Positions 20,160 to 42,219 of a stretch of DNA of 64,000 nucleotides are shown in pieces. The notes below the pieces were generated by a model. The model was given only the letters and a program-made list of their open reading frames with translations. It did not search any database and had not been told where the DNA came from. Each line of letters starts with the position of its first letter. The first letter of the stretch is position 1. The stretch is from Burkholderiales bacterium. Lineage in GTDB: Bacteria > Pseudomonadota > Gammaproteobacteria > Burkholderiales > Burkholderiaceae_C. The translations under genes were made by a program, and so were the position numbers. The stretch is taken from positions 1-64,000 of the forward strand of contig CANFIH010000002.1 of the NCBI GenBank assembly GCA_947446855.1, written 5' to 3'.

Positions 20160-20171
20160 GGTGCGGCTCCT

Positions 20172-21098
20172 TTAAGCGAGGCTGTCGACCAGGCCGCGCA
20201 GGGTATCGAACCCCTTCTTGGCGTATGCGTAACTGGGTGCCACGGCCGGGTCCTGCTCGGCTTCTACCACCAGCCAGCCCTCGTAGCCGGCGTTCTTCAA
20301 TACGGTGAGCGCTGCCATGTAATCGATGCTGCCGTCGCCGGGCACGGTGAAGGTGCCGTTGATCACGCCGTTCAAAAAGCTCCAGCTGTCGTTGCGGGCC
20401 TGGGCAATCACCGAGGTGCGCACGTCCTTGCAATGCACATGTACCACGCGCTTCACATGCTTTTCCAGCAGCGTCACGGGGTTGACCGCGCCGCCGAAGT
20501 AGGCGTGCCCGGTGTCAAACAACAGGAAGACCTTGGCCGGGTCGGTCAGGGCCATCAGCTTGTCCACATCGGCGGGGGACTCTACGTAGGCACCCATGTG
20601 GTGGTGGTAAGCCAGCTTGATGCCGTAGCTGCTGAGCAGGTGTTCGCCAAAGGCATTCAGGCGCTCGGCGTAAGCCTGCCACAGGGCTTCAGTTGCAAAG
20701 GTGGGGCGCTTGGACACGGGGGTGTCGATCTGTCCTTGCACGGTGCCGGCGCATTCGCCATAGACCACGACCTTGACGCCATTGAATTGCAGCTTGCTCA
20801 TATGCGCCTTGCAGCGTGCTATCTCGGCGGCCACCGCGTCGGCATTGCTCTGACCGGCTTGCACTTCGGCCAGAAAACCGGAGTACCAGCCGGACACGCA
20901 GGCCAGGCCGAATTCGTCCAGCTTGGCCTTCAGGCCGGGGCCGTCCTTGGGGAATTTGTTGCCCAGCTCAAAGCCTTCGTAGCCGATTTCCTTGCCTTCG
21001 CGCAAAGCGGTTTCCAGCGGGGTTTCGCCGCCCAGCGAGGGCAGGTCGTCGTTCATCCAGGACAGGGGGTTGATACCGATTTGTACGTTCCAGGTCAT
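20172..21098 (-). CDS. iolE: myo-inosose-2 dehydratase
   Basis: MTWNVQIGINPLSWMNDDLPSLGGETPLETAL typical of IolE. Confidence 0.92.
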   Translation of the reverse strand: MTWNVQIGINPLSWMNDDLPSLGGETPLETALREGKEIGYEGFELGNKFPKDGPGLKAKLDEFGLACVSGWYSGFLAEVQAGQSNADAVAAEIARCKAHMSKLQFNGVKVVVYGECAGTVQGQIDTPVSKRPTFATEALWQAYAERLNAFGEHLLSSYGIKLAYHHHMGAYVESPADVDKLMALTDPAKVFLLFDTGHAYFGGAVNPVTLLEKHVKRVVHVHCKDVRTSVIAQARNDSWSFLNGVINGTFTVPGDGSIDYMAALTVLKNAGYEGWLVVEAEQDPAVAPSYAYAKKGFDTLRGLVDSLA

Positions 21099-21165
21099 GT
21101 GCGTTCTCTTTAAAAAGGTGGGGTTGATCTTGTGTTGCGTGGCAGGTGTTGTGACGGTGCGTGCC

Positions 21166-23037: not shown

Positions 23038-23080
23038 GTTGTTTGTCTCTCCTGAAACTCTTTAGGCGACTGCCGCTACC

Positions 23081-25015
23081 CTAGCTGCGGCGGTTGCGCC
23101 AGGCGTCCACCAGCACGGTGTAGTTGGCGGCCACGCGGCTCACCAATGTAGCGTCGTCGATGCTGCCGCACAGCCAGGCCAGCGACTCGTCCATCCACAG
23201 GCTGCGGCCCACCATAAAGCCCTTGACGATGGGGTTGGTGGCGTTGCGGAAGCTGTCCACCAGATGCGCGATGGGCTGGTTCAGGCCCAGGATGACGGCG
23301 CCGCGGCAATGCGGGTCGCGCTCCTGCACCAGCCACTCCAGACCATGCCAACCGGCAGCGCTCATGGGCGCCAGCTTCCACCACTCGGGCTTGACGCCAA
23401 TGTTGTAAAAGCGCTTGACGGCGCGCAGCACGGCCGCGTCTTCCTGGCCCGCGACACTCAGCGCCTTGGGCAGGATGATTTCCAGCAACAGCTCGTTGCC
23501 ACTGGCGCGGGTGGCTTCCCACAGTTCCAGCACCTTTTGTTCCTGCTCCAGCCGCAATGCAAAGTGGTCGTCCGGGTGGTAGTGCACCAGGCACTTCACC
23601 ACCTGCTCGCTGGGCCAGTTAATGAGGGCGCTGCCGATGGAGCGCGTACCGTCAAAGCGCAGGGGGCGTGAACCCGGCAATTCCACCGGGCGGCCCACCC
23701 ACCAGCCGCGTCCGGTGGCGCTGGCCAATGCGTCGCGGCCATAGTCGCCACCGTCAATCAGCACTCCGGTCTGGCCCTGCATCTGGCGGCTGGTCTCTAC
23801 CTGTGCTGCGGCTTGTACCAGCAGCTTCTTGAGCGCGGGGATATGGGAATCATCGACACCCGCCTCACGCGCCATGTCATAGAACTGGCTGCGGTGGTCA
23901 AAGGCCATGACGCAGAGTTCGTCCCACGGCGGGCGCGCCGTGGTGACGCGGTGCAGATGGGCGAGTTGCTGGTCCGCATCCACCTTGGGGTTGCGGCTGC
24001 CGCTGAACCAATGATCCAGTTCGGTGGGGGTTGGCATGGCGGCCGAGCAGGCGTGGCGCGACACCACGATGGCGCCGCAGGCATTGGCAATCTTCGTGGA
24101 TTCGGCCCAGTCCTTGCCTTGCAACAGCGTGGCCATCAGGCCGGACAAAAATGCGTCACCGGCACCCAGCACGTTGAGCACCTCGACGCGCTCACCGCGG
24201 TAGGTGGTGGCATCGTCAATATGGGCGGGAATGTCACCTTCGATCACGCAGCAACCCAATGCGCCGCGCTTCACCACCAGCGTGGCCTTAGTCAAAGCGC
24301 GCACCGCCTTCAGGCTGGCGATGAGGTCGTCGCTCACACCGCCGGCGATAAAGAACTCTTCTTCCGTGCCCACCAGCAGATCAAAGTGCGGCAGCATTTC
24401 CTGCAGCTGCTGCGTCACATGGGCATCGGCCACATAGCGGTTCTCGCCAGCGCCGCGCGATGTCAGGCCCCACAGAACGGGGCGGTAATCGATGTCCAGC
24501 ACGCGCACCACGCCATGCTGGGCGGCGTAGTCCAAGGCCGTCTGCGAGGCTTTGCGGGTGGTGGGGGTGGAGAGGTGTGTGCCGGTAATGGCCAGGGCGC
24601 GGCATTGGGCAATGAAGGCTTCGTCAATCAGCGCGGCGTCCACCGCCATGTCGGCGCAGTTCTCGCGCACAAACAGCAGGGGGAAGGTGTCGCGGTCTTT
24701 CAGGCCCAGCAGCACCAGGGCCGTCAGGCGCTCGGGGTCGATCTGCACCTGGGAGGTGTCGCAGCCCTCGGCTTCCAGCGTTTGGGTGAGAAAGCGGCCC
24801 ATCTGCTCGTCGCCCACGCGGGCAATCATGGCGCTGCGCAGGCCCAGACGGGCCACGCCAAAGGCCAGGTTACCCGAGCTGCCGCCCAGGTACTTGGCCA
24901 TGGAGCGGGCGTCTTCCAGCTTGGCGCCGAATTGCTGCGCATACAGGTCCACCGCCAGGCGCCCCAGGCAGGCCAGGTCGTAACTGCGACCGGAAGGGAA
25001 ATTCAAGGTACTCAT
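23081..25015 (-). CDS. iolC: 5-dehydro-2-deoxygluconokinase fused to a C-terminal DUF2090/aldolase-like domain
   Basis: PfkB-type kinase (LGGSSGNLAFGVARLG, NVLGAGDAFLSGLM) followed by an additional ~300 aa domain (MAFDHRSQFYDMA...). Confidence 0.88.
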   Translation of the reverse strand: MSTLNFPSGRSYDLACLGRLAVDLYAQQFGAKLEDARSMAKYLGGSSGNLAFGVARLGLRSAMIARVGDEQMGRFLTQTLEAEGCDTSQVQIDPERLTALVLLGLKDRDTFPLLFVRENCADMAVDAALIDEAFIAQCRALAITGTHLSTPTTRKASQTALDYAAQHGVVRVLDIDYRPVLWGLTSRGAGENRYVADAHVTQQLQEMLPHFDLLVGTEEEFFIAGGVSDDLIASLKAVRALTKATLVVKRGALGCCVIEGDIPAHIDDATTYRGERVEVLNVLGAGDAFLSGLMATLLQGKDWAESTKIANACGAIVVSRHACSAAMPTPTELDHWFSGSRNPKVDADQQLAHLHRVTTARPPWDELCVMAFDHRSQFYDMAREAGVDDSHIPALKKLLVQAAAQVETSRQMQGQTGVLIDGGDYGRDALASATGRGWWVGRPVELPGSRPLRFDGTRSIGSALINWPSEQVVKCLVHYHPDDHFALRLEQEQKVLELWEATRASGNELLLEIILPKALSVAGQEDAAVLRAVKRFYNIGVKPEWWKLAPMSAAGWHGLEWLVQERDPHCRGAVILGLNQPIAHLVDSFRNATNPIVKGFMVGRSLWMDESLAWLCGSIDDATLVSRVAANYTVLVDAWRNRRS

Positions 25016-25122
25016 ACAGAGCGTTCCATCGGTTGTGAGGTAAATCGGTGAGCGCGCGGTTCGCGGCCGAGGTGACACAAGGCGGGCGTGCGAACCTGGT
25101 GCCACGGCATGCTGAATTATAA

Positions 25123-25136
25123 AGAAATACCTTTCC
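25123..25136. promoter_or_regulatory. AGAA-N6-TTCC box 1 upstream of iolC
   Basis: AGAAATACCTTTCC; second copy 30 bp away. Confidence 0.5.
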
Positions 25137-25152
25137 TTGTGTTTATTCACTT

Positions 25153-25271: not shown

Positions 25272-26174
25272 TCAGCTTAACAATTGTCCGGCTATCGCGG
25301 TCGCGGCGGATCGGGTCTCGACCCCAAGCTTTTCAAAAATATGTTCCAGATGCTTGTTGACCGTGCGGTGGCTCATCCCCAGTATCTCGGCAATGTCACG
25401 GTTGGTCTTTCCCTTGGCCAACCATGACAGGACTTCGGTTTCACGCGGGGTCAGGGGCACATCGGGTTGACGTACCGAGGTTTCCGCTTTGGTCGGGGCC
25501 ATGTTGAGTACCAACATCGATTCGGAAATACCGCTTTGACCCATGTGCATTGCCACCAGGACGCCCTTGCCCGGCAAGGGTACGCTGATCTGCGCATGTT
25601 CATGAGCGGTGTGTAGCCAGGCCTGCGCGGCCTGGTGGTCCGGTTGGCCGAAAGCGGCTTCCAGCCAGCGCGTGGCCTGGGGCGAGCGCCAGGCCAGGCG
25701 TCCGCGGCTGTCCAGCAACACCGTGCCCAGGCCGGCCACGTCCACCGCTTCGCGTGCCAGGCGGGTGGCCTGCGCGTTGCGCACATGGGTTGCCAGGCGT
25801 ACCAACACCTCGGGCAGGCGCAGCGGCTTGACCACATAGTCCACGCCGCCGCTGGTGAATCCCTCGAGGATTTGTGCTGTATCCGAAAGCCCGGTCATGA
25901 AAACCACCGGGATGTGTGCCCAATGGGGCGTCTCCTTGAGTTTCCTGCATAGCGCAAATCCGTCCATGCCGGGCATGACGGCGTCCAGCAGGATGCCATC
26001 CGGGATCACTATTTCCAGACGTTCCAAGGCTTCCTGCGCGTCTCGGGCGGCGAGTACGGCATAGCCTTCGGCGCTCAGTGCGTCACACAGCATGCGCAGC
26101 GTATCGAGCGCATCGTCCACCACGAGAATGGAATGGCGTGGTGCCGGGGATTCGGGCTTAGAGGAATCGGTCAT
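25272..26174 (-). CDS. Response regulator with LuxR/FixJ-type HTH
   Basis: REC domain (ILVVDDALDTLRML...VMPGMDGFALC) and C-terminal LuxR HTH (LTPRETEVLSWLAKGKTNRDIAEILGMSHRTVNKHLEHIFEKLGV); overlaps the upstream kinase stop. Confidence 0.9.
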   Translation of the reverse strand: MTDSSKPESPAPRHSILVVDDALDTLRMLCDALSAEGYAVLAARDAQEALERLEIVIPDGILLDAVMPGMDGFALCRKLKETPHWAHIPVVFMTGLSDTAQILEGFTSGGVDYVVKPLRLPEVLVRLATHVRNAQATRLAREAVDVAGLGTVLLDSRGRLAWRSPQATRWLEAAFGQPDHQAAQAWLHTAHEHAQISVPLPGKGVLVAMHMGQSGISESMLVLNMAPTKAETSVRQPDVPLTPRETEVLSWLAKGKTNRDIAEILGMSHRTVNKHLEHIFEKLGVETRSAATAIAGQLLS

Positions 26175-29100
26175 GGTCGGGTTCCCGAAGTTGAATGCTG
26201 AGGGCCTGGAAGTCGAAGCTTTCGGCAAGGCCTTGCAGAGCGTGCAGCGTGATGGTGTGCTCGGGGTGGGATATGAGCCCTTTTCGCAGTGCATCGCGCA
26301 GCGCTGTGGCGTGACCCTGCCTGGCCAGTCGGCCCAGTTCCTCGCGCAGCATGTCAGGCAAATCCGCCGGGTTCGGGCGTGCCACTGTGCTGGTGCTTTG
26401 CTCCAGCTTGGCGGCTACCAGTGACCGTGGCGTATTGTCCCGGACCCATTCAATCTGAAGCGCATGTTCCAGCGCGTCGAGCAACTCCGATTCGATAATC
26501 GGCTTGCCCACAAAGCCCTGGCATTGCATGGCAAGCAGACGTTCCGGTTGGTGGTCAAACAGGTTGGCAGAGACAAAAACAATGGGCAGCTTGTCGGGTG
26601 GCAAGAGTTGACGCAACAGCGCCGCAGTTTCCCAGCCATCCAGATCGTCCATCGTGATGTCCAGCAGCACCAGGTCGGGCGGATCCCGTTGCACGATTTC
26701 CAGGCATTCACGCCCACTGGCGGCCTCGTTGATCGTAAAGCCCAGCGGCACCAGAAGGCCCGCCAGAAGCTGCCGCTGCAGTGGCTGGTCATCGACCACC
26801 AGCAGGGTTCGTCTCGGGTCCAGGTAGCCTATGACTGAACGCAGAGCGAAGGCACGCCTGGGTGAGCTGACCTGGTCAGACGTGATGCCCGGCAGATACA
26901 AGCGCACCGAGAAGGTGCTGCCATGGCCAGGGATGCTGGTAACGGTCAGCTCACCGCCCATGAGTTGTGTCAGCAGGTTGGTAATCGTCAGACCCAGGCC
27001 GGTGCCTGATTCGCTGGCACGCCGGCCTGCGCTGCCGCGTTCGAAGGGCAGGAAGATGCGTTCCTGATCCTGCGAGGCAATACCGATGCCCGTGTCCACG
27101 ACATCGATGCGCGTGACGTGTTGACGAAAATCCAGGCGCAGCACAATCGCGCCGCGCTCGGTGAAGCGCACCGCGTTGGCCAGCAGGTTGATGAGAATTT
27201 GCCGCAACCGTTTCGCATCTGCACGCACATAGGTCGGGGCCACGCCCATGATTGCCAATGAGAAATGCAAGCCCTTGCTCTCGGCCTGCGGCCGCAGCAT
27301 ACCCTCTACATCTTCCAGCAGCTCGGCCAGTGGCAGTGGCACCGGGTCCAGCCGCAAGCGTCCGGCTTCAATGCGCGCCAGTTCCAGCGAACCGTCGATG
27401 AGTGCCCGCATGTGCTGGCCGCTGTGGTGCATGGTGGCCAGGGTTTCGCGCATCCCGCCATCGATCTGGGTATTTTTGAGCAGGATCTGCGTATAGCCCA
27501 GAATGCTGTTGAGAGGGGAGCGCAACTCGTGTGTCATGCCGGCCACGTAGCGCGTCTTGGCCTGGCTTGCCGAGTCGGCCTGGTCCTTGGCGGATTGCAG
27601 TGCGGCGTCCGTGCGGCGGTGGGCATCGATCTCTTCGAGCAAGCGGTGGGTCTGGTTTTCAGATTCGTCTTGTGCCATGCGCCTGCTGTCAGTGCTGAGT
27701 ACGACCCACCATGCGCACACTGCAGCCAGCAGGGCCAGCAGCGAAAACACCTTGAGAAAGGGCATGCGCAGCAGCGGCGCGGTTGTGTTCAGGCTCTCCT
27801 GCACATAGACCACTCCCACCAATAACGCCATGACCGCGCACAGCGACAGCATGACGAACAAATATTGTCCAAAGCGAAAATTGACTTTCAGCAGCCACTT
27901 TTTGGGTAGCAGCCATGCCGCAACGGCGCGCAGTTGGTCGCCGGCGCCGGCTTCTTTCTTGCAGCGGTCATGGCAGCGCGATTCCAGCGAGCAGCAGAGG
28001 GAACATATGGGCGCGCTGTAGGCCGGGCATTGGGCCATGTCTTCCGATTCGAACTGGTTTTCACAGACCGTACAGCGCACAATTTCGCCTGGCTGCCACT
28101 GCGTATCTGGCGTGCGTGCCAGGTAATAACGCCCCTCCGTGGCCCAGGCCAGCAGAGGAGCCAGCGCCATGGACAGCGCCAGGGCAATGAACGGCGAGAA
28201 CGCTGCCGCCCAGGCGCCGAACAATCCGGCGTAGGCGCAACAGGCGGCTGTTGCTGCAATCACCATGGAACCCAGGCCCACGGGGTTGAAGTCGTAAAGA
28301 TGGGCGCGGCGGAATTCAATGCCGGGGGGGCTTAAGCCCAGTGGCTTATTGATGACCAGGTCTGCCACCAGAGCGCCCACCCAGGCAATAGCCACATTGC
28401 TGTACACCGCGAGCACTTTCTCCAGAGCGCCAAAAACGCCGAGTGTCATGAGCAAGGTGGCAATCAGGACATTGAACACCAGCCAGACCACGCGCCCCGG
28501 ATGGCTGCGGGTCACACGGGAAAAAAAGTTCGACCAGGCAAGCGAGCCCGCGTAGGCGTTGGTCAGGTTGATCTTGATTTGCGAGACCACGACAAAGACG
28601 ACGGTCACAATGACTGCTATTCCGGTATGGCCGATGGCCTGTGTAAAACCGGCGAGGAACATCTGCGTAGGCTCGGTGGCGCGGCTGGAGGGCACTTCGA
28701 ACTGCAAGGCGGCAAAGGCCAGAAATGCGCCGCCCGCCATCTTGAACATGCCCATCACGATCCAGCCGGGTCCGGCCGTCAGTACCGCGCCCCACCAGCG
28801 CAGTCGATTGGCGCGCGTTCTTTCGGGCAGGAAGCGCAGAAAGTCCACCTGCTCGCCAATTTGCACCACCAGCGAGAAGATCACCGCCGCCGCCGCACCA
28901 AACATCAAGGGGTCAAAGCTGCTACTGCCACTGCGCAAGCCCGTCAGACCCGAGAAGTCGCGATACATCTGCGGCTTTTCCAGTGCGATCCAGACGAAGG
29001 GAAGCACCAGCAGAAAAAGCCACACCGGTTGCGTCCATGCCTGCAGTCGCGAGATCAGGGTGATCCCGTGCATGGCCAGTGGCAGGATCACCAGCGACGA

Positions 29101-29592
29101 CAGCACATAACACCACTCCAGGGGCCAAGGCAGCACCATTTGTATGGCCAACGCCATGATGGCTGCCTCCAGCGCAAAAAAGATGAAGGTAAAGATCGCA
29201 TAGATCAGCGAGGTGATGGTGGAGCCCAGGTAGCCAAAGCCCGCACCGCGCGTGAGCAGGTCCATGTCCAGTCCATAGCGCGCGGCGTAGTAAGCGATGG
29301 GCAAGCCTGTCAGAAAAATGATGACACCGACGCACAGGATGGCCCACATGGCGTTGGAAAACCCATAGTTCATTGCGATGGCTCCCCCGATCGCTTCCAG
29401 TGCCAGGAAAGCCAGGGAGCCAAACGCCGTGTTGGCCACCCTGAATTCGCTCCAGCGCCGGAAGCTCTTGGGCGTGTAACGCAGTGCGTAGTCCTCCATG
29501 CTTTCGTCTGCGACCCAGGAGTTGTATTCGCGGCGAAACCGGTAAATCGGTTGGGGGGCAATGGGACGATGGAAGTCGGTGGGCGCGGTCAT
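26158..29592 (-). CDS. NCS1-type (purine/cytosine permease-like) transporter fused to hybrid histidine kinase with receiver domain
   Basis: One ORF: multi-TM NCS1-like region, Cys-rich segment, HisKA (GMTHELRSPLNSILGYTQILL), HATPase_c (LINLLANAVRFTERG; GTGLGLTI) and REC (LLVVDDQPLQRQLL...LVLLDITMDDLDGWE). Confidence 0.9.
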   Translation of the reverse strand: MTAPTDFHRPIAPQPIYRFRREYNSWVADESMEDYALRYTPKSFRRWSEFRVANTAFGSLAFLALEAIGGAIAMNYGFSNAMWAILCVGVIIFLTGLPIAYYAARYGLDMDLLTRGAGFGYLGSTITSLIYAIFTFIFFALEAAIMALAIQMVLPWPLEWCYVLSSLVILPLAMHGITLISRLQAWTQPVWLFLLVLPFVWIALEKPQMYRDFSGLTGLRSGSSSFDPLMFGAAAAVIFSLVVQIGEQVDFLRFLPERTRANRLRWWGAVLTAGPGWIVMGMFKMAGGAFLAFAALQFEVPSSRATEPTQMFLAGFTQAIGHTGIAVIVTVVFVVVSQIKINLTNAYAGSLAWSNFFSRVTRSHPGRVVWLVFNVLIATLLMTLGVFGALEKVLAVYSNVAIAWVGALVADLVINKPLGLSPPGIEFRRAHLYDFNPVGLGSMVIAATAACCAYAGLFGAWAAAFSPFIALALSMALAPLLAWATEGRYYLARTPDTQWQPGEIVRCTVCENQFESEDMAQCPAYSAPICSLCCSLESRCHDRCKKEAGAGDQLRAVAAWLLPKKWLLKVNFRFGQYLFVMLSLCAVMALLVGVVYVQESLNTTAPLLRMPFLKVFSLLALLAAVCAWWVVLSTDSRRMAQDESENQTHRLLEEIDAHRRTDAALQSAKDQADSASQAKTRYVAGMTHELRSPLNSILGYTQILLKNTQIDGGMRETLATMHHSGQHMRALIDGSLELARIEAGRLRLDPVPLPLAELLEDVEGMLRPQAESKGLHFSLAIMGVAPTYVRADAKRLRQILINLLANAVRFTERGAIVLRLDFRQHVTRIDVVDTGIGIASQDQERIFLPFERGSAGRRASESGTGLGLTITNLLTQLMGGELTVTSIPGHGSTFSVRLYLPGITSDQVSSPRRAFALRSVIGYLDPRRTLLVVDDQPLQRQLLAGLLVPLGFTINEAASGRECLEIVQRDPPDLVLLDITMDDLDGWETAALLRQLLPPDKLPIVFVSANLFDHQPERLLAMQCQGFVGKPIIESELLDALEHALQIEWVRDNTPRSLVAAKLEQSTSTVARPNPADLPDMLREELGRLARQGHATALRDALRKGLISHPEHTITLHALQGLAESFDFQALSIQLREPDHDRFL

Positions 29593-29650
29593 GCAGTGAA
29601 GCAAGCAAGAATCGTTCTCACACCCCTGTGCCTCGCGCCGCAGCCACCAC

Positions 29651-29666
29651 TACGTTAATTAACGTA
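29651..29666. promoter_or_regulatory. Perfect 16-bp palindrome TACGTTAATTAACGTA
   Basis: Exact palindrome in the divergent region between the NCS1-kinase gene and urtA; flanked by CAGCCA/TGGCTG. Confidence 0.65.
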
Positions 29667-29754
29667 TGGCTGGGAAGTGGGCTTGAACCTAATCTTTGCA
29701 CCAGCGCGGCGATTTCCGCCGTTCGTTTTTAACCCATGCTGCAAGGAGCGTTAC

Positions 29755-31026
29755 ATGAAGCACACTTCCGATGACAAGGCCCTCAACCTGGCTACCGCGG
29801 ACGTCAGTCGACGTCGCATGTTGCAGGCTATCGGTGCCGTATCCGTAGCCGGCCTGCCAGCGTTCGCATCAGCCCAGGCGACTGCTCAGGTCAATACGAC
29901 CAATCTGGCCGTAACCGACACCGAAGTGACCGTCGGCCAATTGCATTCCGCAACCGGCACCATGGCCATCTCGGAAACCGGCGCTATCCAGGCCGAGCAA
30001 CTGGCCATTGACCAGATCAACGCCATGGGTGGCATTCTGGGACGCAAGATCAAGGTGATCAAGGAAGACGGCGCCTCTGACTGGCCCACCTTCGCCGAGA
30101 AGTCCAAGAAACTGCTGGTCAACGACCATTGTGCCGCCGTGTTTGGTTGTTGGACCTCGGCATCGCGCAAAGCGGTGTTGCCCATCTTCGAAAAAGAAAA
30201 CGGCCTGCTCTACTACCCCACCTTTTACGAAGGCTTGGAGCAGTCCAAGAACGTGGTCTACACCGGACAGGAAGCCACGCAGCAGATCCTGTACAGCCTG
30301 GACTGGGCGCAGAAAGAGAAGAAGGCCAAGACCTTCTTCCTGATCGGCTCGGACTACATCTGGCCCCGTACCTCGATGAAGATTGCACGCAAGCACGTCG
30401 AGAACTTCCAGAAGGGAAAGATTGTCGGTGAGGAGTATTACCCGCTGGGCAGCACCAACTTTGGCTCTTTGATGAACAAGATCAAGGTGCAAAAACCGGA
30501 TTGCATTTTTGTGGCCGTGGTCGGAGGCTCCAACGTCGCCTTCTACAAGGCACTCAAGGCTGCCGGCATCACTGGCGACAAGCAGCTGCTGTTGACGCTG
30601 GCAGTGACAGAAGACGAAATGACGGGCGTGGGTGGTGAGAACTTCCAGGGCTTTTATTCGTCCATGAAGTATTTCCAGTCTCTGGAGAACGACAACAACA
30701 AAAAGTTCGTCGCTGCCTTCAAGGCCAAGTATGGCAAGGACTCGGTCATTGGCGATGTGACCCAGGCCGGTTACCTCGGCCCCTGGCTGTGGAAGGCTGC
30801 TGTGGAGAAGGCCAAGAGCTTTGATGTGAACAAGGTCGTCGCCGCATCCGAGACGGGAACCATTGAACTCAAAACTGCGCCCGAAGGCTATGTGAAGCTC
30901 GACCAGAACCACCACCTGTGGAGCAAGTCGCGTATCGCCATGGGTATGCCAGACGCCACCTTCAAGGTGGTGTCCGAGTCGCCGGAGCTGATCAAACCCA
31001 ATCCGTTCCCCAAGGGCTATCAATAA
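29755..31026 (+). CDS. urtA: Urea/short-chain amide ABC transporter substrate-binding protein
   Basis: Tat-like leader SRRRMLQAIGAVSVAGLPAFASAQ; UrtA/FmdD-like sequence (VTVGQLHSATGTMAISETGA). Confidence 0.88.
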   Translation: MKHTSDDKALNLATADVSRRRMLQAIGAVSVAGLPAFASAQATAQVNTTNLAVTDTEVTVGQLHSATGTMAISETGAIQAEQLAIDQINAMGGILGRKIKVIKEDGASDWPTFAEKSKKLLVNDHCAAVFGCWTSASRKAVLPIFEKENGLLYYPTFYEGLEQSKNVVYTGQEATQQILYSLDWAQKEKKAKTFFLIGSDYIWPRTSMKIARKHVENFQKGKIVGEEYYPLGSTNFGSLMNKIKVQKPDCIFVAVVGGSNVAFYKALKAAGITGDKQLLLTLAVTEDEMTGVGGENFQGFYSSMKYFQSLENDNNKKFVAAFKAKYGKDSVIGDVTQAGYLGPWLWKAAVEKAKSFDVNKVVAASETGTIELKTAPEGYVKLDQNHHLWSKSRIAMGMPDATFKVVSESPELIKPNPFPKGYQ

Positions 31027-31043
31027 GCCGCTCTAGCCCCGCA

Positions 31044-31074
31044 CCGGGTAGGCGCAGGTTCTGCGCCAACCCGG
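31044..31074. other. GC-rich intercistronic stem-loop between urtA and urtB
   Basis: CCGGGTaGGCGCAG-gtt-CTGCGCCaACCCGG. Confidence 0.65.
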
Positions 31075-31109
31075 CTCCACCCACTCTTTGTTTTCCAGGA
31101 GCCAGCCAC

Positions 31110-32024
31110 ATGACTTTTTCTGAAATGCTCAATATCGGATTGATGCAAGGTTTTGCCGGCCTGAGCCTGTTTGCCGTGCTGCTGCTTATGGGGCTGGGGC
31201 TGGCCATCATTTTTGGCCAGATGGGCGTCATCAACATGGCGCATGGCGAGTTCATGACCATCGGTGCGTACACCATTTACTTTGGGTCCACCCTGGCATC
31301 GACCTATGCGCCGCATATGGTTGCCTACTATTTTCCGGTTGCCATCATTGCGGCATTCATGTTTTCTTTTGTGGTGGGCTGGCTGGTGGAGTGGGCGCTC
31401 ATTCGCCACCTTTACAAGCGCCCTCTGGACACTCTGCTTGCCACCTGGGGCATCAGCCTGGCGCTGCAGCAGATGTTTCGAACCTTTATTGGCCCCAAGG
31501 AAGTCAGCCCGACCTTGCCCGACTGGTTGCTCGGCTCCTGGGCACCTGCGGAAGGCCTGGACATTCCCATCAACGGCATGTTCGTGTTGGGCTTGACGGC
31601 CTTTGTGACCTGCGCCGTGCTGCTGGCGCTGCATCAGAGCCGCTGGGGCCTGCGTGTGCGTGCCACCGTAAGCAACCGCTTGATGGCCAATGCTATTGGC
31701 ATTGACACCATGAAGACCGACCGCCTGACCTTCGCCATCGGCTGCGGCATTGCGGGTGTGGCGGGTGCCGCATTTACCACTATCGGCTCTACCGGACCGA
31801 CCTCGGGATCGCTCTACATCGTAGATGCCTTTTTGGTCGTGACGTTTGGTGGCGCAGCAAGCCTCTTGGGCACCGTGGTGTCGGCCTTTGGTATCGCCCA
31901 AACCCAGTCCGTTGCCGAGTTTTTCCTTACGGGCTCCATGGCAAAAATGATCACGCTGTCGCTCATTGTCCTGATTCTGATGGTGCGGCCGCAAGGGCTG
32001 TTCGCCAGCAAGATCCGCCGCTGA
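31110..32024 (+). CDS. urtB: Urea/amide ABC transporter permease (LivH-type)
   Basis: MGLGLAIIFGQMGVINMAHGEFMTIGAY. Confidence 0.88.
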   Translation: MTFSEMLNIGLMQGFAGLSLFAVLLLMGLGLAIIFGQMGVINMAHGEFMTIGAYTIYFGSTLASTYAPHMVAYYFPVAIIAAFMFSFVVGWLVEWALIRHLYKRPLDTLLATWGISLALQQMFRTFIGPKEVSPTLPDWLLGSWAPAEGLDIPINGMFVLGLTAFVTCAVLLALHQSRWGLRVRATVSNRLMANAIGIDTMKTDRLTFAIGCGIAGVAGAAFTTIGSTGPTSGSLYIVDAFLVVTFGGAASLLGTVVSAFGIAQTQSVAEFFLTGSMAKMITLSLIVLILMVRPQGLFASKIRR

Positions 32025-32054
32025 TTTCCAAAAATTCTCACGGAGAACCACCCC

Positions 32055-33254
32055 ATGAATGCCCTCAAAGCCTGGATCACGCGCTATCAGCTCGCTAGCA
32101 TGGTGCTACTCGTCGTGCTGCTGGCCGTGGTGCTGCCACTGACATTGGACATCTTTCGCCTCAACCTTGTCGGCAAGTACCTGACCTATTCCTTCGTTGC
32201 TATCGGCCTGGTCATGGTCTGGGGTTATGGTGGTGTGCTCAGCCTGGGGCAGGGAGTGTTTTTTGGTCTGGGCGGCTACGCCATGGCCATGTTCCTCAAG
32301 CTGGAGGCCTCTGACCCCGTGAGCACGGCCATTCAGTCAACGCCCGGTATCCCGGACTTCATGGACTGGAACCAAATCACGGCCCTGCCGGCCTTGTGGG
32401 TGCCCTTCAAGAGTTTGCCTTTTGCCCTCTTTGCAGTAGTTGCTGTACCCACCTTGCTGGCCTTCATCATCAGCTACGCCATGTTCAAGCGGCGGGTCGG
32501 CGGGGTGTACTTCGCCATCATCACGCAGGCGGTGGCACTGATCTTGACGGTGCTGATCATCGGCCAACAGGGTTACACCGGGGGCGTCAACGGCATGACC
32601 GATTTGAAAACGGTTTTGGGCTGGGATACCCGCACGGACAGTGCCAAGTACATCCTCTATTACCTGTGTGTGGCGTTGCTGATCGGCTCCATGGTCCTGT
32701 GCCGTTGGGTTCAGACCAGCAAGCTCGGTACGCTGCTCTTGGCCATGCGTGACAAAGAAGACCGGGTGCGCTTCTCCGGCTATGACGTCGCCGATTTCAA
32801 AGTATTTACCTTCTGCCTGGCCGCCGCACTATCGGGCATTGGCGGCGCGCTGTTTTCACTGCAGGTCGGTTTCATGTCGCCCAGTTTTGTTGGCATCGTG
32901 CCGTCCATTGAGATGGTCATCTATGCCGCAGTGGGCGGACGCATGAGCCTGGTGGGTGCGGTGTATGGCACCTTGTTGGTGAATGCCGGCAAGACCTATT
33001 TTTCGGAGAGCTTTCCCGATGTGTGGCTGTTCCTTATGGCGGCCCTTTTCATCGGTGTGACCATGGCCTTCCCGATGGGCCTTGCCGGTGTGTGGGAAGA
33101 GCATGTCAGACCCTGGTGGACGGCGCGCCGCCAAGCGCTGCGCGATGCCGCTGTCAAGGCACCGCAAGCGATGCTTCCCCGCGCTGCAGATGCGCCTGCG
33201 GCTACGTCCAGCCCAGCGGTCCTGCCCGAAGGTGTCCCCGCCCAAAGCGTCTGA
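32055..33254 (+). CDS. urtC: Urea/amide ABC transporter permease (LivM-type)
   Basis: VMVWGYGGVLSLGQGVFFGLGGYAMAM; PQ-type LivM topology. Confidence 0.88.
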   Translation: MNALKAWITRYQLASMVLLVVLLAVVLPLTLDIFRLNLVGKYLTYSFVAIGLVMVWGYGGVLSLGQGVFFGLGGYAMAMFLKLEASDPVSTAIQSTPGIPDFMDWNQITALPALWVPFKSLPFALFAVVAVPTLLAFIISYAMFKRRVGGVYFAIITQAVALILTVLIIGQQGYTGGVNGMTDLKTVLGWDTRTDSAKYILYYLCVALLIGSMVLCRWVQTSKLGTLLLAMRDKEDRVRFSGYDVADFKVFTFCLAAALSGIGGALFSLQVGFMSPSFVGIVPSIEMVIYAAVGGRMSLVGAVYGTLLVNAGKTYFSESFPDVWLFLMAALFIGVTMAFPMGLAGVWEEHVRPWWTARRQALRDAAVKAPQAMLPRAADAPAATSSPAVLPEGVPAQSV

Positions 33255-33272
33255 GTTCAAAGGAAATACATC

Positions 33273-34016
33273 ATGAGCAACACAGACTTTGCATTGGCGG
33301 TGGAAGACCTCACCGTCTCGTTTGACGGCTTCAAGGCGATTGACGCGTTGACGCTGTACGTGGACCGCAATGAGCTGCGCGTCATCATCGGCCCCAACGG
33401 CGCGGGCAAGACCACGCTGCTGGACCTGATTTGCGGCAAGACCCGGGCCACCGGGGGCAGCATCAAATTCAAGAATCTGGAACTGACCCGGATGGCCGAG
33501 CACCAGCGGGTACGCCTGGGTATTGGACGCAAGTTCCAGACGCCCTCCATCTACGAAAACCTGCCGGTGTTCCAGAACCTGGAAGTCTCCTATCCCGCTG
33601 GCCGCTCGGTGTTTGGTGCGCTGGCCTTCAAGTGCACAGACGAAGTCAAGGCGCGCGTGCAGGTGGTTGCCGAAGACATTGGCCTGGGCGACAAGCTGGA
33701 TATGGAAGCCGGCCTCCTGTCCCACGGCCAGAAGCAGTGGCTGGAAATCGGCATGTTGCTGATGCAGGAGCCCGAGTTGCTGATGCTCGATGAGCCCATT
33801 GCCGGCATGAGCGCACGCGAACGCGAGCTCACCGCCGAACTGCTGCAGCGCATCTGCAAGAACCGCGCAGTGATAGTGATTGAACACGACATGGAATTCG
33901 TCAAGCGCATCGCCCACAAGGTCACTGTCATGCACCAGGGGAAGATCCTGGCCGAGGGGCCCATGGACAAAGTGCAGGCTGATCCCAAGGTCATTGATGT
34001 GTACCTCGGTCACTGA
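33273..34016 (+). CDS. urtD: Urea/amide ABC transporter ATP-binding protein
   Basis: GPNGAGKTTLLDLICGKTRATGG and LSHGQKQWLEIGMLLMQEPELLMLDEP. Confidence 0.9.
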   Translation: MSNTDFALAVEDLTVSFDGFKAIDALTLYVDRNELRVIIGPNGAGKTTLLDLICGKTRATGGSIKFKNLELTRMAEHQRVRLGIGRKFQTPSIYENLPVFQNLEVSYPAGRSVFGALAFKCTDEVKARVQVVAEDIGLGDKLDMEAGLLSHGQKQWLEIGMLLMQEPELLMLDEPIAGMSARERELTAELLQRICKNRAVIVIEHDMEFVKRIAHKVTVMHQGKILAEGPMDKVQADPKVIDVYLGH

Positions 34017-34050
34017 CCACGCATTGTTGTTGTTGAACCAGGAGCCCACT

Positions 34051-34740
34051 ATGTTGGAAGTCAATAATCTGTTCGTTGCGTATGGCCAGAGCGAGGCATT
34101 GCATGGCATTAGTTTTCACGGGCGTCCCAATGAAACGGTTGCCATCATGGGCCGTAACGGCATGGGTAAGACTACGCTGTTCAAGAGTTTGATGGGTGTG
34201 TTGCCCATCAAGAGTGGGCAGGTGAAAGTGGCCGGCCAGGATGTGTCCAAAGACGAGAGTTTCCGCCGCGTCGCCAAGGGCATTGCTTACGTGCCCCAGG
34301 GCCGCATGATCTTCCCGACCTTGACAGTTGAAGAGAACATCCAGACCGGGCTGGAGAACGCCAAGTTCAAGCGCATTCCCGATGAAATCTACGCGCTATT
34401 TCCGGTGCTGTGGGACATGCGCAGCCGCAAGGGTGGCAATCTGTCGGGCGGACAGCAGCAGCAGCTCGCCATCGCCCGCGCGCTGGTGACCGAGCCCAAG
34501 GTGTTGTTGCTCGATGAGCCCACCGAAGGCATACAGCCCTCCATCATCAAGGACATCGCCAAGGCTCTCAACGAGATCCGCCGCATGCGAGAAATCACCA
34601 TCATCGTGTCCGAGCAGGTGCTGTCCTTCGCCATGGATGTGGCCGACCGCCTGTTTGTCATCGAGGGCGGCCGTCTGGTGCATGAGACGGCGCGTGCCGA
34701 CACCGACCAGCAGCGCATCAAGTCGTATTTGTCTGTCTGA
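34051..34740 (+). CDS. urtE: Urea/amide ABC transporter ATP-binding protein
   Basis: GRNGMGKTTLFKSLMGVLPIKSG, LSGGQQQQLAIARALVTEPKVLLLDEPTEGIQPSII. Confidence 0.9.
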   Translation: MLEVNNLFVAYGQSEALHGISFHGRPNETVAIMGRNGMGKTTLFKSLMGVLPIKSGQVKVAGQDVSKDESFRRVAKGIAYVPQGRMIFPTLTVEENIQTGLENAKFKRIPDEIYALFPVLWDMRSRKGGNLSGGQQQQLAIARALVTEPKVLLLDEPTEGIQPSIIKDIAKALNEIRRMREITIIVSEQVLSFAMDVADRLFVIEGGRLVHETARADTDQQRIKSYLSV

Positions 34741-34781
34741 TTTCCACGCTTTATCCACCCTCACTTCAACAGGAGCACACC

Positions 34782-36014
34782 ATGGCTGAGACCCTTATCA
34801 AAGTTGACCTCAAGCAATCCGCCTACGAAAACGAGCAAGTCCACAACCGCTGGCACCCTGATGTGCCCATGGCCTGCTGGGTCAAGCCGGGTGATGACTT
34901 CATTCTGGAAACCTACGATTGGACCGGCGGCTTTATCAAGAACAACGACAGCGCGGACGACGTGCGCGACATCGACTTGTCGATCGTCCACTTCCTGTCG
35001 GGCCCGGTGGGTGTGCATGGTGCCGAGGCGGGTGACCTGTTGGTGGTGGACCTGCTCGATATCGGCGCCAAGGACGAGAGCCCCTGGGGCTTTAACGGCT
35101 TCTTCAGCAAGCAAAATGGCGGCGGCTTTTTGACCGACCACTTTCCACTGGCGCAGAAGTCCATCTGGGACTTCAATGGCATGTTCACCAAGAGCCGTCA
35201 CATACCCGGCGTGGAGTACGCGGGCCTGATCCACCCCGGGCTGATCGGCTGCCTGCCCGACAAGGCCATGCTGGACGCCTGGAACGCCCGCGAGCAGGAA
35301 CTGCTCGATACCGACCCCACCCGTGTGCCGGGTCTGGCCAATATGCCCTTTGCCGCCACTGCCCATATGGGCAAGCTCAGTGGTGAAGCCAAGGCCAAGG
35401 CGGCGGCCGAAGGGGCGCGCACCGTGCCACCCCGTGAGCATGGTGGCAATTGCGACATCAAGGATTTGTCGCGCGGCTCCAAGGTGTATTTCCCGGTCTA
35501 CGTGGACGGCGCGGGCCTGTCCGTCGGCGACCTGCACTTCAGCCAGGGTGATGGCGAAATCACCTTCTGCGGCGCCATTGAAATGGCCGGCTGGGTGCAT
35601 ATGCGCGTCAACCTCATCAAGGGCGGCATGGCCAAGTACGGCATCAAGAATCCGGTGTTCAAGCCCAGCCCCATAACCCCCAACTACAAGGACTACCTGA
35701 TTTTTGAAGGCATCTCGGTGGACGAGCAGGGCAAGCAGCATTACCTGGATGTCAACGTCGCCTACCGCCAAGCCTGCCTGAATGCCATTGAGTATCTCAA
35801 GAAGTTCGGTTACAGCGGTGCACAGGCCTACTCCATTCTGGGAACGGCGCCAGTGCAGGGCCACATCAGCGGTGTGGTGGACGTGCCCAACGCCTGCGCC
35901 ACCCTCTGGCTGCCGACCGAAATTTTCGAATTCGACATCAACCCGAATGCGAACGGTCCCATCGTGATGCTCGACGGCAGCATCCAGATGCCGATCTCGC
36001 CCGACCTCAAGTAA
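34782..36014 (+). CDS. fmdA: Formamidase (FmdA/acetamidase family)
   Basis: MAETLIKVDLKQSAYENEQVHNRWHPDVPM...; FmdA_AmdA-like sequence. Confidence 0.9.
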   Translation: MAETLIKVDLKQSAYENEQVHNRWHPDVPMACWVKPGDDFILETYDWTGGFIKNNDSADDVRDIDLSIVHFLSGPVGVHGAEAGDLLVVDLLDIGAKDESPWGFNGFFSKQNGGGFLTDHFPLAQKSIWDFNGMFTKSRHIPGVEYAGLIHPGLIGCLPDKAMLDAWNAREQELLDTDPTRVPGLANMPFAATAHMGKLSGEAKAKAAAEGARTVPPREHGGNCDIKDLSRGSKVYFPVYVDGAGLSVGDLHFSQGDGEITFCGAIEMAGWVHMRVNLIKGGMAKYGIKNPVFKPSPITPNYKDYLIFEGISVDEQGKQHYLDVNVAYRQACLNAIEYLKKFGYSGAQAYSILGTAPVQGHISGVVDVPNACATLWLPTEIFEFDINPNANGPIVMLDGSIQMPISPDLK

Positions 36015-36031
36015 GCACCAGGAGCACGCAG

Positions 36032-36385
36032 ATGCCAACCTATGACTATGCGTGCCCGGACTGCGGGGGCTTCGATGCCCTGCGCAGCCTGGCCGCCCGC
36101 AACGACCCCTGTGCCTGCCCCGCCTGCGGCACCGAGGCACCCCGCGTGTTTGTCAGTGCACCCAGGCTGGCCTGCACCACGTCCGAGCAGCGGCGTGCCT
36201 TTGATACCAACGAGCGTTCGCAGCACGCGCCGCGCTCCTCGCGCGACACCGGCGAGAGCTACAGCCGCTTGCGCCACCCGGTCGGCTGTGGCTGTTGCAG
36301 CACTGGCAAACGGGGCGCAACCGTGACCGCGGCCAATGGAGCCAAGACCTTTCCGGGCAAGCGGCCCTGGATGATCAGCCACTAA
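36032..36385 (+). CDS. fmdB: FmdB-type zinc-ribbon protein
   Basis: [33 protein letters not shown]. Confidence 0.85.
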
Positions 36386-36404
36386 AAATTCGGAGAACTC
36401 AGCC

Positions 36405-37445
36405 ATGCACCATGGTGATATTTCAAGCAGCAAGGACACGGTCGGCGTGGCCGTTGTCAATTACAAGATGCCGCGCCTGCATACCAAGGCCGAAGTGCTG
36501 GACAACGCACGCAAAATTGCCGACATGGTGGTCGGCATGAAGTCCGGCTTGCCGGGCATGGATCTGGTGATCTTTCCCGAGTACAGCACGCACGGCATCA
36601 TGTACGACGCGCAGGAGATGTACGCCACAGCGGCCACGGTGCCCGGCGCCGAGACGGAGATCTTTGCCGAGGCCTGCCGCAAAGCCAAGGTGTGGGGTGT
36701 GTTCTCGCTCACCGGCGAGCAGCATGAGGAGCACCCGAACAAGGCGCCCTACAACACGCTGATCCTGATGAACGACCAGGGCGAGATCGTGCAGAAGTAC
36801 CGCAAGATCATGCCGTGGGTGCCCATCGAAGGCTGGTACCCTGGCAACTGCACCTATGTGTCCGAGGGCCCCAAGGGCATGAAGATCAGCCTCATCATTT
36901 GCGACGACGGCAACTACCCCGAGATCTGGCGCGACTGCGCCATGAAGGGTGCCGAGCTGATCGTGCGCTGCCAGGGTTATATGTATCCCGCCAAGGACCA
37001 GCAGGTGCTGATGGCCAAGGCCATGGCATGGGCCAACAACAGCTACGTGGCCGTGGCCAATGCCGCAGGTTGGGACGGCGTGTACAGCTACTTCGGACAC
37101 AGCGCCATCATCGGTTTTGACGGGCGCACGCTGGGTGAATGCGGCGAAGAAGACTACGGTGTGCAGTACGCAGCCCTGAGCACCAGCCTGATCCGCGACT
37201 TCCGCAAAAACGGCCAAAGCGAGAACCATCTCTTCAAGCTCTTGCACCGCGGCTACACCGGCATGATCAACTCGCGCGAAGGCGACAAGGGCGTGGCCGA
37301 TTGCCCCTACGAGTTTTACTCCAACTGGGTCAATGACCCCGAGGGGACGCGCAAAGCCGTGGAAGCATTCACACGGCCGATGGTGGGTACCGAGGAATGC
37401 CCGATTGACGGCATTCCCAATCCCGCCAGCGTGCAGCACAAATGA
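36405..37445 (+). CDS. amiE: Aliphatic amidase (nitrilase superfamily)
   Basis: [61 protein letters not shown] and [36 protein letters not shown]. Confidence 0.95.
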
Positions 37446-38257
37446 TGTCAGCCGATCCGCTGCAAACCTGGCGGCTGGATGCGGAGCCTTATTACGCGGC
37501 GCAGGGTAACGAGCTGGCTGCGTTTGAGGCGGCACATGCCCTGCGCCTGCCGGTGTTGCTCAAGGGCCCCACCGGTTGCGGCAAGACGCGTTTTGTAGAG
37601 CATATGGCCTGGCGTCTGGGCAAGCCGCTCATTACCGTGGCCTGCCACGACGACCTGTCAGCCAGCGACCTGGTGGGTCGCTGGCTGCTGGATGCACAGG
37701 GCACACGTTGGCAGGATGGCCCGTTGACGCAGGCGGCCCGCCATGGCGCCCTGTGCTATCTGGACGAGGTGGTGGAGGCGCGTGCCGACACCACCGTGGT
37801 ACTGCACCCCCTCACTGACGCGCGCCGCATGTTGCCGCTGACTGCATGCAACGAACTGCTGCATGCCCACCCTGATTTTCAACTGGTGGTCTCTTACAAC
37901 CCCGGCTACCAAGCCCTGCACAAAACGCTCAAGCCCTCTACCCGTCAGCGCTTTGTCGGACTGGAGTTCAGCTACCCCAGCGCCGACCAGGAGGCTGCGG
38001 TGGTGGCGCATGAGGGGCAGGTGGAACTGGCCTTGGCGCGCCAGCTCGTGGCGGTGGCTGAGCGCACCCGCCGCCTGAGGGAGCACGGTCTGGCCGAAGG
38101 GGCCTCTACCCGCATGCTCATCCACGCGGCAGCGCTCACCCGCCAGAGGCTGAGCGCCCGCGTTGCTTGTTTGCAGGCCATCACCTGCCCCTTGAGTGAC
38201 GACCCCGACTTGGCCACCGCTTTGGCCGCCGCAGTGGATGCCTCCTTCACTCACTAG
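37442..38257 (+). CDS. MoxR-type AAA+ ATPase, CbbQ/NirQ/NorQ family
   Basis: Walker [50 protein letters not shown]; start overlaps the amiE stop. Confidence 0.9.
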
Positions 38258-40025
38258 CGCCGGGTCTGCCCGCTGTGTGGCAATAGCCTCTCTCCACAGT
38301 GGCGCGCAGCCCGCGGCGCGCCACCTGCCACCTTATGTGCGCGCCCTGTGGGATGTGGCGCCGCACTTTGCGCGACTGGCGCCAGCAGGCCCCCACGGTC
38401 AGGTCGAATCCACGCAATCGGATGCGGCCGGGCGCCAGCGGCCTGTGCTCGTGACCCGCTCGGCGGTGCTGCCGACGCCCACGCTGTACCTGCCGGTCCA
38501 TTGGCAACAGCCCACCCTGTTGCGCGCCGCTGTGGCGCATGCCTGCGCGCATTTGGCCCATGGCAATGTGCCCCTGCAACGTGGCAAGCTCAAGCCGATC
38601 CAGCTTGCGCTGTTGGGCGTGCTGGAAGACGCCCGGGTAGAGGCGCGGGCCATTGCCGAACTCCCCGGCCTTCGCGCTCTGTGGTTGCCTTGGCACCCAG
38701 CCGGCGTCGACACCGGCAACAGCTTCGAAGCCCTGCTACAACGCGTGCAGCGCAGCCTGCTTGACCCGCAGTACACCGACCCGCACCCCTGGGTGCGCAA
38801 GGCCTGCACCATGTACCACGCTGCCCTGGAAACGCCCGAGGGCATGCGCCAGACAGCCTCCCTGCTGGGCAATGACCTGGGCCAGATGCGCATGCCGTTC
38901 AATGCGCAGCTCTACGTGGTGGAGCCCGCTTACCGCGACGACAACAGCCACCTCTGGCTATCGGATCCCCAGGCGCCTCCCGCCGTCCAGCCCTTGAACG
39001 CGCCCAGTGATACGCAAGAGGGACCGGCGCAGGGTGACAGCAGCACCCCCTTGCCGCAGCCCATCGAACAGCAGGCCGAAGCAGCGGCAGCACGGCCTAC
39101 GGCGGTCTATGGCGAGTGGGACCGGCTCATCAGCCGCATGCGTCCCAGGTGGTGCCAGGTGTTTGAAGAAGACGCGCCAGAGGGTACACCCCAGGCGTGC
39201 CACGCACTGGGCCTGACCTTGGCCCGGCATGCCGCGCTGCTCGCGCGCCTCAAGCGCGTGCTGCAACAGGGCTTGCCACGCACCCGCGCACCGGTGGCGT
39301 GTGGCCGCGCTGCCGAGGGCGAGTACTTTCACCTGAACGCACTGGTGAAGGCGGTCGCCGATCAGCGTATGCATCGCCAGCCGGATCCGCATATTTACTT
39401 GCAGCCGATGCGTACCTCGCAGCCCATGCATGTGCTCGTGCTGCTGGACGCATCGGTCTCTACGCTGCGGGCTGCTGCGGGTTGTGCTTCCCCGGAGTCG
39501 CCCGAAACGTTGCTGGATATTTTGCGGGAATCGTCCTTGCTCGCTGCGACCGCGTTGGAGCGCGCGGGCCATGGCTGTGCAGTGCAGGCCTTTGCCTCCA
39601 ACACGCGCCACCAGGTGCGCGTGCAGCGCATCAAGGGCTTCGCCGAGCCGGCCGAATCCCCTCACACGCTGGCGCGACTGGCGGGTATTCAGGGCGAGTG
39701 GTCCACCCGCCTGGGCGCGGTACTGCGCCACGCCGGCGCTCAGCTGCGCGGCTATCCCCGGGCGCATGTGGTGCTGCTCACGGACGGTCAAGCGCACGAT
39801 GTGGATGTGCATGACACGCGTTATCTGGCTGCCGACCTGACGCATGCGGTGCAAGAAGTGCGGCGTGCCGGCATTGCGGTGTCGTGCCTCAACGTGGCGG
39901 GAAATGATGCTGCGTCGATGGCCGAGCATCGGGCCATGCAACGCGCCCTGGGTGTCTTCTCCTGCTTTGCCATGCGCGGACCTGCGGACCTGCCGCATCA
40001 ACTGCTGTCTTGCCTGGCACGCTGA
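38238..40025 (+). CDS. VWA-domain protein, CbbO/NorD family
   Basis: MIDAS DASVS (MHVLVLLDASVSTLR) and C-terminal VVLLTDGQAHDVDVHD; overlaps the AAA+ gene. Confidence 0.85.
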   Translation: MPPSLTSAGSARCVAIASLHSGAQPAARHLPPYVRALWDVAPHFARLAPAGPHGQVESTQSDAAGRQRPVLVTRSAVLPTPTLYLPVHWQQPTLLRAAVAHACAHLAHGNVPLQRGKLKPIQLALLGVLEDARVEARAIAELPGLRALWLPWHPAGVDTGNSFEALLQRVQRSLLDPQYTDPHPWVRKACTMYHAALETPEGMRQTASLLGNDLGQMRMPFNAQLYVVEPAYRDDNSHLWLSDPQAPPAVQPLNAPSDTQEGPAQGDSSTPLPQPIEQQAEAAAARPTAVYGEWDRLISRMRPRWCQVFEEDAPEGTPQACHALGLTLARHAALLARLKRVLQQGLPRTRAPVACGRAAEGEYFHLNALVKAVADQRMHRQPDPHIYLQPMRTSQPMHVLVLLDASVSTLRAAAGCASPESPETLLDILRESSLLAATALERAGHGCAVQAFASNTRHQVRVQRIKGFAEPAESPHTLARLAGIQGEWSTRLGAVLRHAGAQLRGYPRAHVVLLTDGQAHDVDVHDTRYLAADLTHAVQEVRRAGIAVSCLNVAGNDAASMAEHRAMQRALGVFSCFAMRGPADLPHQLLSCLAR

Positions 40026-42203: not shown

Positions 42204-42219
42204 GGCCGACCCCGCAACC

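Follow-up and report, generated by a model that had tools for sequence, protein, structure and literature searches.

An NCS1-fold domain fused to a hybrid histidine kinase beside amide and urea genes: a widespread family of putative transporter-type sensors

Can a transporter fold serve as the input domain of a sensor kinase for small nitrogen compounds? The question is raised by a gene in a stretch of 64,000 nucleotides from a Burkholderiales bacterium (assembly GCA_947446855.1, contig CANFIH010000002.1, positions 1 to 64,000; the whole stretch is here called the window), which encodes a hybrid sensor kinase with a transporter-like N-terminal domain and is divergent from genes for urea and short-chain amides. 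The original prediction, made from the sequence alone, was that a full-length NCS1 (nucleobase/cation symporter-like) region, a Cys-rich linker and HisKA, HATPase_c and REC domains are joined here in one polypeptide that senses a nitrogen compound. We found a real, conserved and widespread transporter–kinase family that is apparently uncharacterised, and we give a probability of roughly 0.7 to the view that it forms a two-component system of the transceptor type that responds to short amides, with a paralogue for urea.

The original prediction had itself named a sequencing error joining two genes as what would speak against it, and the source assembly is indeed fragmented (4.48 Mb in 334 contigs, completeness 87, contamination 6.5). 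The fusion survived this check. The kinase frame starts with ATG and has no internal stops over its 1,144 residues, and Pfam placed all three signalling domains within this single polypeptide. A homologue was present in 166 of 301 sampled genomes of the host family, almost always as one open frame. Across Pseudomonadota, 65 of 398 sampled genomes had the N-terminal domain, which nearly always belonged to an open frame longer than 1,100 residues. Since frames of about 1,120–1,360 residues recur in independent genomes, including single-contig ones, a split gene or an assembly error was rejected, its probability being close to negligible. A named scan gave 80 loci, including those of Comamonadaceae, Burkholderia, Bordetella, Pseudomonas, Bradyrhizobium and Methylotenera, and 535 plasmid records matched, 342 of them from Klebsiella. 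The response regulator gene followed directly after the kinase gene at 71 of the 73 named loci with enough sequence, at a gap of -47 to +38 nt, and one locus (L076) held two kinase copies in tandem. In the window, the overlap that had been noted with a LuxR-type regulator gene amounts to 17 bp, the ATG of the regulator lying within the kinase gene.

Recognising the N-terminal domain as NCS1 from sequence alone was not trivial, as residues 1–504 gave no Pfam match, PF02133 included, and no meaningful PDB sequence match, and NCBIfam was likewise blind to the domain. An AlphaFold2 model of residues 1–680, built from an alignment of 80 homologues (pLDDT 86.7, pTM 0.84), had as its top five Foldseek matches in the PDB solely NCS1 structures, including Mhp1 (2jln, 4d1a, 2x79) and CodB (7qoa), with probability 1.00 and target TM-scores of 0.63–0.71. 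Structures of the SSS family ranked lower, and an SLC5/SSS transporter domain was rejected on that ground. Profile comparison using hhalign against an NCS1 alignment that included CodB gave a probability of 95.6% and an E-value of 1e-8, and stand-alone permeases that do pass PF02133 were 46% (Klebsiella) and 28% identical to the window domain. Because the model-based matches, the profile comparison and the PF02133-positive homologues agree, we conclude that the predicted fold of this domain is NCS1, and the claim of a full-length NCS1 region is thereby upheld.

The kinase part has the hallmarks of a hybrid HisKA kinase, with the H box, the N and G boxes and the REC Asp and Lys all in place. 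The residues H688, N806, D833, G863, D978 and K1030 were identical throughout 109 full-length relatives, and as judged from this conservation the kinase is thus under selection. The regulator combines REC with a GerE helix-turn-helix (HTH), as in the NarL/FixJ type. Between the NCS1 domain and the kinase part, the announced Cys-rich linker contains eight conserved Cys residues, of which 507, 510, 522, 530, 533 and 534 are invariant and 540 and 544 nearly so; they are modelled in short strands, and Zn binding by this module is probable. It is followed by modelled helices at 572–600 and 605–679, the long latter one entering HisKA. With 12 + 2 membrane helices, NCS1 topology would place both linker and kinase in the cytoplasm.

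The genes divergent from the kinase gene were identified using NCBIfam as urtABCDE-fmdA-amiE, as originally described; with a CbbQ-type AAA gene and a 609-residue frame after amiE, the operon spans 29755–40025 on the plus strand. When the same architecture was sought elsewhere together with its genomic neighbours, a urea or amide gene was found within about 10 kb at 76 of the 80 named loci. The adjacent and divergent gene was urtA, at least 60% identical to that of the window, at 57 of these loci, ureA at seven and amiE at one, with most of the remaining 15 still carrying urt or urease genes. This linkage spans alpha-, beta- and gammaproteobacteria as well as plasmids, as exemplified by a Klebsiella IncF plasmid (L169, CP024516.1), where the same system is divergent from urtABCDE-amiF.

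Between the kinase gene and urtA in the window (29593–29754) lies a perfect 7-2-7 inverted repeat. The pattern TACGTN6ACGTA occurs only once in the 4.48-Mb assembly, at this very site, compared with six occurrences of a reversed control pattern. In 26 relatives, chosen as close carriers of the amide type, the palindrome was found no further than 0.75 kb from the sensor gene in all 26, with one to three copies per genome and 37 sites in total. Five of the remaining 11 sites were inspected. Three, in three genomes, precede amiE by 67–82 bp, in one case on a contig that does not hold the sensor; the other two were not near such genes. At the named loci the palindrome was seen in 48 of 58 of the amide type and in 1 of 22 of the urea type, with 0.005 expected in each group. 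Since related loci are not independent, these counts do not amount to a probability, but the rarity of the pattern across the genome is strong evidence. The Klebsiella plasmid carries its own version between sensor and urtA (TACGTCATTTAACGTA), and a related TACGCRA form occurs at alphaproteobacterial loci. From its proximity and symmetry, the palindrome is the predicted operator of the response regulator, and its recurrence upstream of amiE is as expected for that role. As an operator of the urea-type kinases it was rejected in view of the 1 of 22 loci, and a search for another palindrome shared among the urea-type loci gave nothing convincing.

The urea type is represented in the same genome by a second NCS1-kinase with its response regulator (L146, contig C28, 4730–13915), 49% identical to the window kinase and divergent from ureA-ureJ-ureB-ureC-ureE-ureF-ureG, in which UreJ and UreC were confirmed by Pfam. 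Although the source assembly has 6.5% contamination, two copies were likewise seen in other nearly complete genomes. In a tree made by a quick method from the N-terminal domains of single proteins, the kinases linked to urease or to urea-type Urt genes all formed a single clade (SH-aLRT 100) distinct from the amide-linked kinases, and the kinase fusions separated from the stand-alone permeases (SH-aLRT 96). The family thus divides in two, a group linked to amide genes and a clade linked to urea genes, and the genome studied here has one member of each. Sigma54-like elements pointed toward the kinase gene at 11 of 23 urea-type loci and away from it at 6 of 23, with corresponding numbers of 6 and 0 of 59 for the amide type; because of these elements, control at the urea-type loci may combine nitrogen regulation with the response regulator. 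Such elements facing the kinase gene were noted at L114, L116, L124, L129, L130 and L146, several of which also have one toward ureA.

The stand-alone relatives lead in the same chemical direction. A Klebsiella "cytosine permease" (L170, 7941–9548), 46% identical to the window domain, is encoded directly 3' of ureDABCEFG, and a permease on an Arthrobacter plasmid, 44% identical, belongs to an operon with an aliphatic amidase, an AAA ATPase and an acetate-CoA ligase. A more distant stand-alone permease has as neighbours a double nitrilase-type hydrolase and a binding protein resembling AmiC/UrtA. Because such relatives sit in urease and amidase operons, this NCS1 branch is probably tied to urea and amides independently of the kinase. 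We regard the Klebsiella protein as a candidate urea permease, from a branch that is seldom linked to urea. It ends in a partial, shortened Cys motif, for which reason the Cys module would either predate the fusion or have been truncated in this permease. As a separate observation, an Arsenophonus plasmid (L172, 5374–7362) has a PAS-HTH gene beside an NCS1 permease, with a nitrilase-type hydrolase nearby, that is, an unfused pairing of regulator and carrier.

Residues of the substrate pocket were mapped by sequence alignment from the contacts known for CodB (PMC9379551), not by superposition of structures. For transmembrane helix 8 (TM8) the MAFFT register, having a doubtful three-residue gap, was replaced by an ungapped one that is backed by the alignment of a near NCS1 protein with CodB. 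In the pocket alignment the stacking aromatic of TM3 corresponds to F138, mostly kept in the kinase family; at the aromatic position of TM6, the near stand-alone permeases and almost all of the kinase family have Leu. An invariant E142 occupies the position of the substrate Gln of Mhp1, and Q244 and N342 are also invariant. The Thr or Ser typical of the Na2 site on TM8 was missing, T278 being replaced by K340 in the ungapped register. Near stand-alone permeases have the same F138/Leu/E142/Q244/N342/K340 pattern. Na+ coupling does not define all NCS1 proteins, as MetT is thought to be proton-coupled (PMC13390362). With Leu in place of the second stacking aromatic of CodB and Lys for the Na2 Thr, the aligned pocket would suit a small, polar and non-aromatic ligand, without coupling to Na+.

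In the mechanism that we propose, a short-chain amide of the formamide or acetamide type would occupy what was once the substrate pocket of the NCS1-fold domain. The resulting conformational change would travel through the Cys/Zn linker and the two-helix membrane hairpin and, by way of the signalling helix, reach the kinase core. Phosphate would pass through H688 and then D978 of the REC domain to the NarL/FixJ-type regulator encoded alongside, which when phosphorylated would bind the palindrome to activate urtABCDE-fmdA and amiE and perhaps the sensor gene as well. For urea, beside urease, the paralogue would act likewise. Architecture, fold and catalytic residues, like the gene linkage, the subfamily split and the palindrome, come directly from the computation. 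What we infer in this scheme is the ligand, the direction of signalling, the phosphotransfer route, the binding of the regulator to the palindrome, activation instead of repression, and whether transport is retained. Of what was originally claimed, the use of a transporter fold to sense a nitrogen compound has strong, if indirect, support from the NCS1 fold, the intact kinase, the gene linkage and an operator-like palindrome found, among the genomes sampled, mainly at these genes; among the ligands then suggested, nucleobases and hydantoin fit the neighbours and the pocket less well than do urea and amides.

The alternatives differ in which part of this scheme they replace. The protein could be mainly a transporter: kinase activity would then be set by uptake flux through the NCS1 domain and not just by ligand binding, and the protein would add to amide or urea uptake. 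This is possible, if improbable: the kinase forms retain residues of the stand-alone permeases, including E142, Q244, K340, R253 and Y347, with no visible loss of the pocket, and CbrA transports histidine (PMC13022988, PMC7096432), a role of flux being debated for that protein, but the adjacent operon here already provides a dedicated ABC importer, and the Amt-kinase fusion Ks-Amt5 lost transport and kept signalling (PMC5764959). It is unlikely that architecture and regulon are as proposed with the NCS1 domain sensing a nucleobase, hydantoin, allantoin or general nitrogen status, the urt/fmd/ami genes being only part of the response. The substrates of characterised NCS1 carriers do include nucleobases, hydantoins and allantoin (PMC9379551, PMC4195764), MetT shows that an NCS1 protein can accept an acyclic guanidine (PMC13390362), and the carbon-storage regulator PhaR binds the promoter of the Sinorhizobium meliloti homologue (PMC12542648). 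Such ligands are disfavoured by the pocket lacking a second stacking aromatic, by stand-alone relatives in urease and amidase operons and by the 76 of 80 loci with urea or amide genes, at which genes for nucleobase or hydantoin catabolism were not searched for. Quite unlikely, finally, is a purely historical linkage, in which the kinase does not regulate the adjacent operon and another factor uses the palindrome. The urea-type loci have sigma54-like promoters facing both genes, which a LuxR-type regulator alone is not expected to activate, yet the linkage holds across three proteobacterial classes and plasmids, and the palindrome co-occurs genome-wide with both sensor and amiE.

Several observations weigh against an amide-sensing two-component system as we propose it. 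The amide ligand is suggested by the neighbouring genes, and the division into amide and urea types is chemically unclean, UrtA being barely over its cut-off and Urt possibly carrying either compound; the residues that separate the two groups are five only, and not clearly in the pocket. No recognised HPt domain was found, which together with the hybrid REC makes the phosphate route ambiguous. The exact palindrome core is missing from 10 of the 58 named amide-type loci, its assignment comes from proximity and symmetry so that another regulator could use the site, and the kinase–urtA intergenic region yielded no recognisable sigma-70 promoter.

Table 1. Positions in the window of the sensor system, its putative operator and the divergent amide/urea genes
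Feature	Position	Strand	Basis
Hybrid sensor kinase, 1,144 aa, NCS1 domain at N-terminus	26158..29592	-	Open reading frame, Pfam
NCS1-fold domain (about residues 14-495)	28108..29553	-	AlphaFold2 + Foldseek, hhalign, stand-alone homologues
Linker rich in Cys (residues 507-544), probably Zn-binding	27961..28074	-	8 conserved Cys, AlphaFold2
Additional pair of transmembrane helices (about residues 572-635) leading into signalling helix	27688..27879	-	Hydropathy, AlphaFold2
HisKA (678-744), phosphoacceptor H688	27361..27561	-	Pfam, residue conservation
HATPase_c (792-900)	26893..27219	-	Pfam, residue conservation
REC (931-1041), D978	26470..26802	-	Pfam, residue conservation
Cognate response regulator, REC + LuxR/GerE HTH, 300 aa	25272..26174	-	PF00072, PF00196 above cut-off
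Perfect inverted repeat TACGTTA-AT-TAACGTA, 16 bp, predicted operator of the response regulator	29651..29666	.	Rarity, conservation
urtA, urea/short-chain-amide ABC binding protein	29755..31026	+	TIGR03407, 493.2 bits (cut-off 492.75)
urtBCDE	31110..34740	+	NCBIfam equivalogs above cut-off
fmdA, formamidase	34782..36014	+	NF045496, 763 bits
amiE, aliphatic amidase	36405..37445	+	NF009802, 720 bits
CbbQ/NorQ-type AAA ATPase + 609-aa open reading frame	37442..40025	+	Co-conserved with amiE

The 609-residue frame, which has no Pfam match, and the CbbQ/NorQ-type AAA ATPase follow amiE in many relatives and are a possible amidase maturation pair; an AAA gene also follows the amidase in Arthrobacter. 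Near the amide operon are a QseBC-like two-component pair (40186–42239) and the large subunit of an ethanolamine ammonia-lyase (44325–45791), and on the other side the regulator gene adjoins an unrelated inositol-type cluster, iolB-iolE-iolD-iolC/DUF2090 (19335–25150). Rfam gave no matches across 25–42.5 kb of the window.

Parts of these loci have appeared in print. A Pseudomonas amiE-fmdA-urt cluster was reported to be without the classical regulators amiC and amiR (PMC13209695), and papers on the Klebsiella and Pseudomonas clusters name the urt and formamidase genes, with an unnamed kinase and a LuxR regulator added in one of them, but do not mention a permease domain (PMC13060141, PMC13209695, PMC13296017). 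In the accounts consulted of the urea-transport cluster on Klebsiella plasmids, the kinase goes unmentioned. The S. meliloti homologue, which we matched to SMb20609 through its published promoter position, was called uncharacterised in 2025 (PMC12542648); it lies near urea-type urt genes, and the quick tree did not place it firmly in either group. Our literature search found neither an NCS1-kinase nor a characterised member of the family, in line with the original statement that none of this architecture and linkage was known, with subscription journals lying mostly outside its coverage, so that earlier work may be missed. If the proposed function is true, the family would supply the missing regulator of the widespread urt-fmd-ami clusters and of the urea-transport cluster of many Klebsiella plasmids. 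Even for CbrA it is open how transporter folds turn into receptors and whether signalling requires transport, and here binding, transport and output could be separated using close stand-alone permeases (44–46% identical), the two sensor groups, whose predicted ligands differ, the fixed response regulator and a rare predicted operator.

Among known systems, the closest in principle are the SLC5-STAC kinases (PMC13022988, PMC7096432, PMC9100948, PMC5715377), of which CbrA and CrbS likewise link a LeuT-fold secondary transporter to a histidine kinase with a partner regulator and control of small-nutrient use (PMC13022988, PMC7096432, PMC5715377). The transporter here is NCS1 instead of SLC5/SSS, the probable ligands are amides or urea, and the linker is Cys-rich, probably Zn-binding, and followed by a two-helix hairpin, whereas theirs is a four-helix STAC bundle. 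A STAC linker was rejected here, as no Pfam match in the linker exceeded its cut-off and short strands with a Cys motif were found in place of a four-helix bundle. Ks-Amt5 similarly uses the fold of a nitrogen-compound transporter as kinase input, but the Amt fold is unrelated to NCS1, and that protein has 679 residues, no REC being described, and comes from an anammox bacterium (PMC5764959). With Mhp1, CodB and MetT the window domain shares the fold, the Arg of TM6 and Tyr of TM8 (R253, Y347) and the TM3 aromatic F138, differing from them in the Leu at the second substrate aromatic, in K340 for the Na2 Thr and in the fused kinase. Aliphatic amidase genes are under amide-responsive control also in the AmiC/AmiR system, where the sensor AmiC is of the binding-protein type and AmiR acts as an antiterminator that binds RNA (PMC13209695), in contrast to the membrane kinase, predicted DNA-binding regulator and operator-like palindrome found here. 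The regulator itself resembles those of the NarL/FixJ type in joining REC to a LuxR HTH, differing in the predicted half-site (TACGTCA), a longer receiver–HTH linker and putative nitrogen-catabolic targets. NarL sites are 7-2-7 inverted repeats that start with TAC and end with GTA, like the site predicted here. On balance we lean slightly toward regarding these proteins as a third, independent lineage of transporter–kinase transceptors, built on NCS1, with paired amide and urea sensors per cell that are each coupled to their own catabolic operon, and with the amide branch replacing AmiC/AmiR by means of a dedicated palindrome-binding response regulator.

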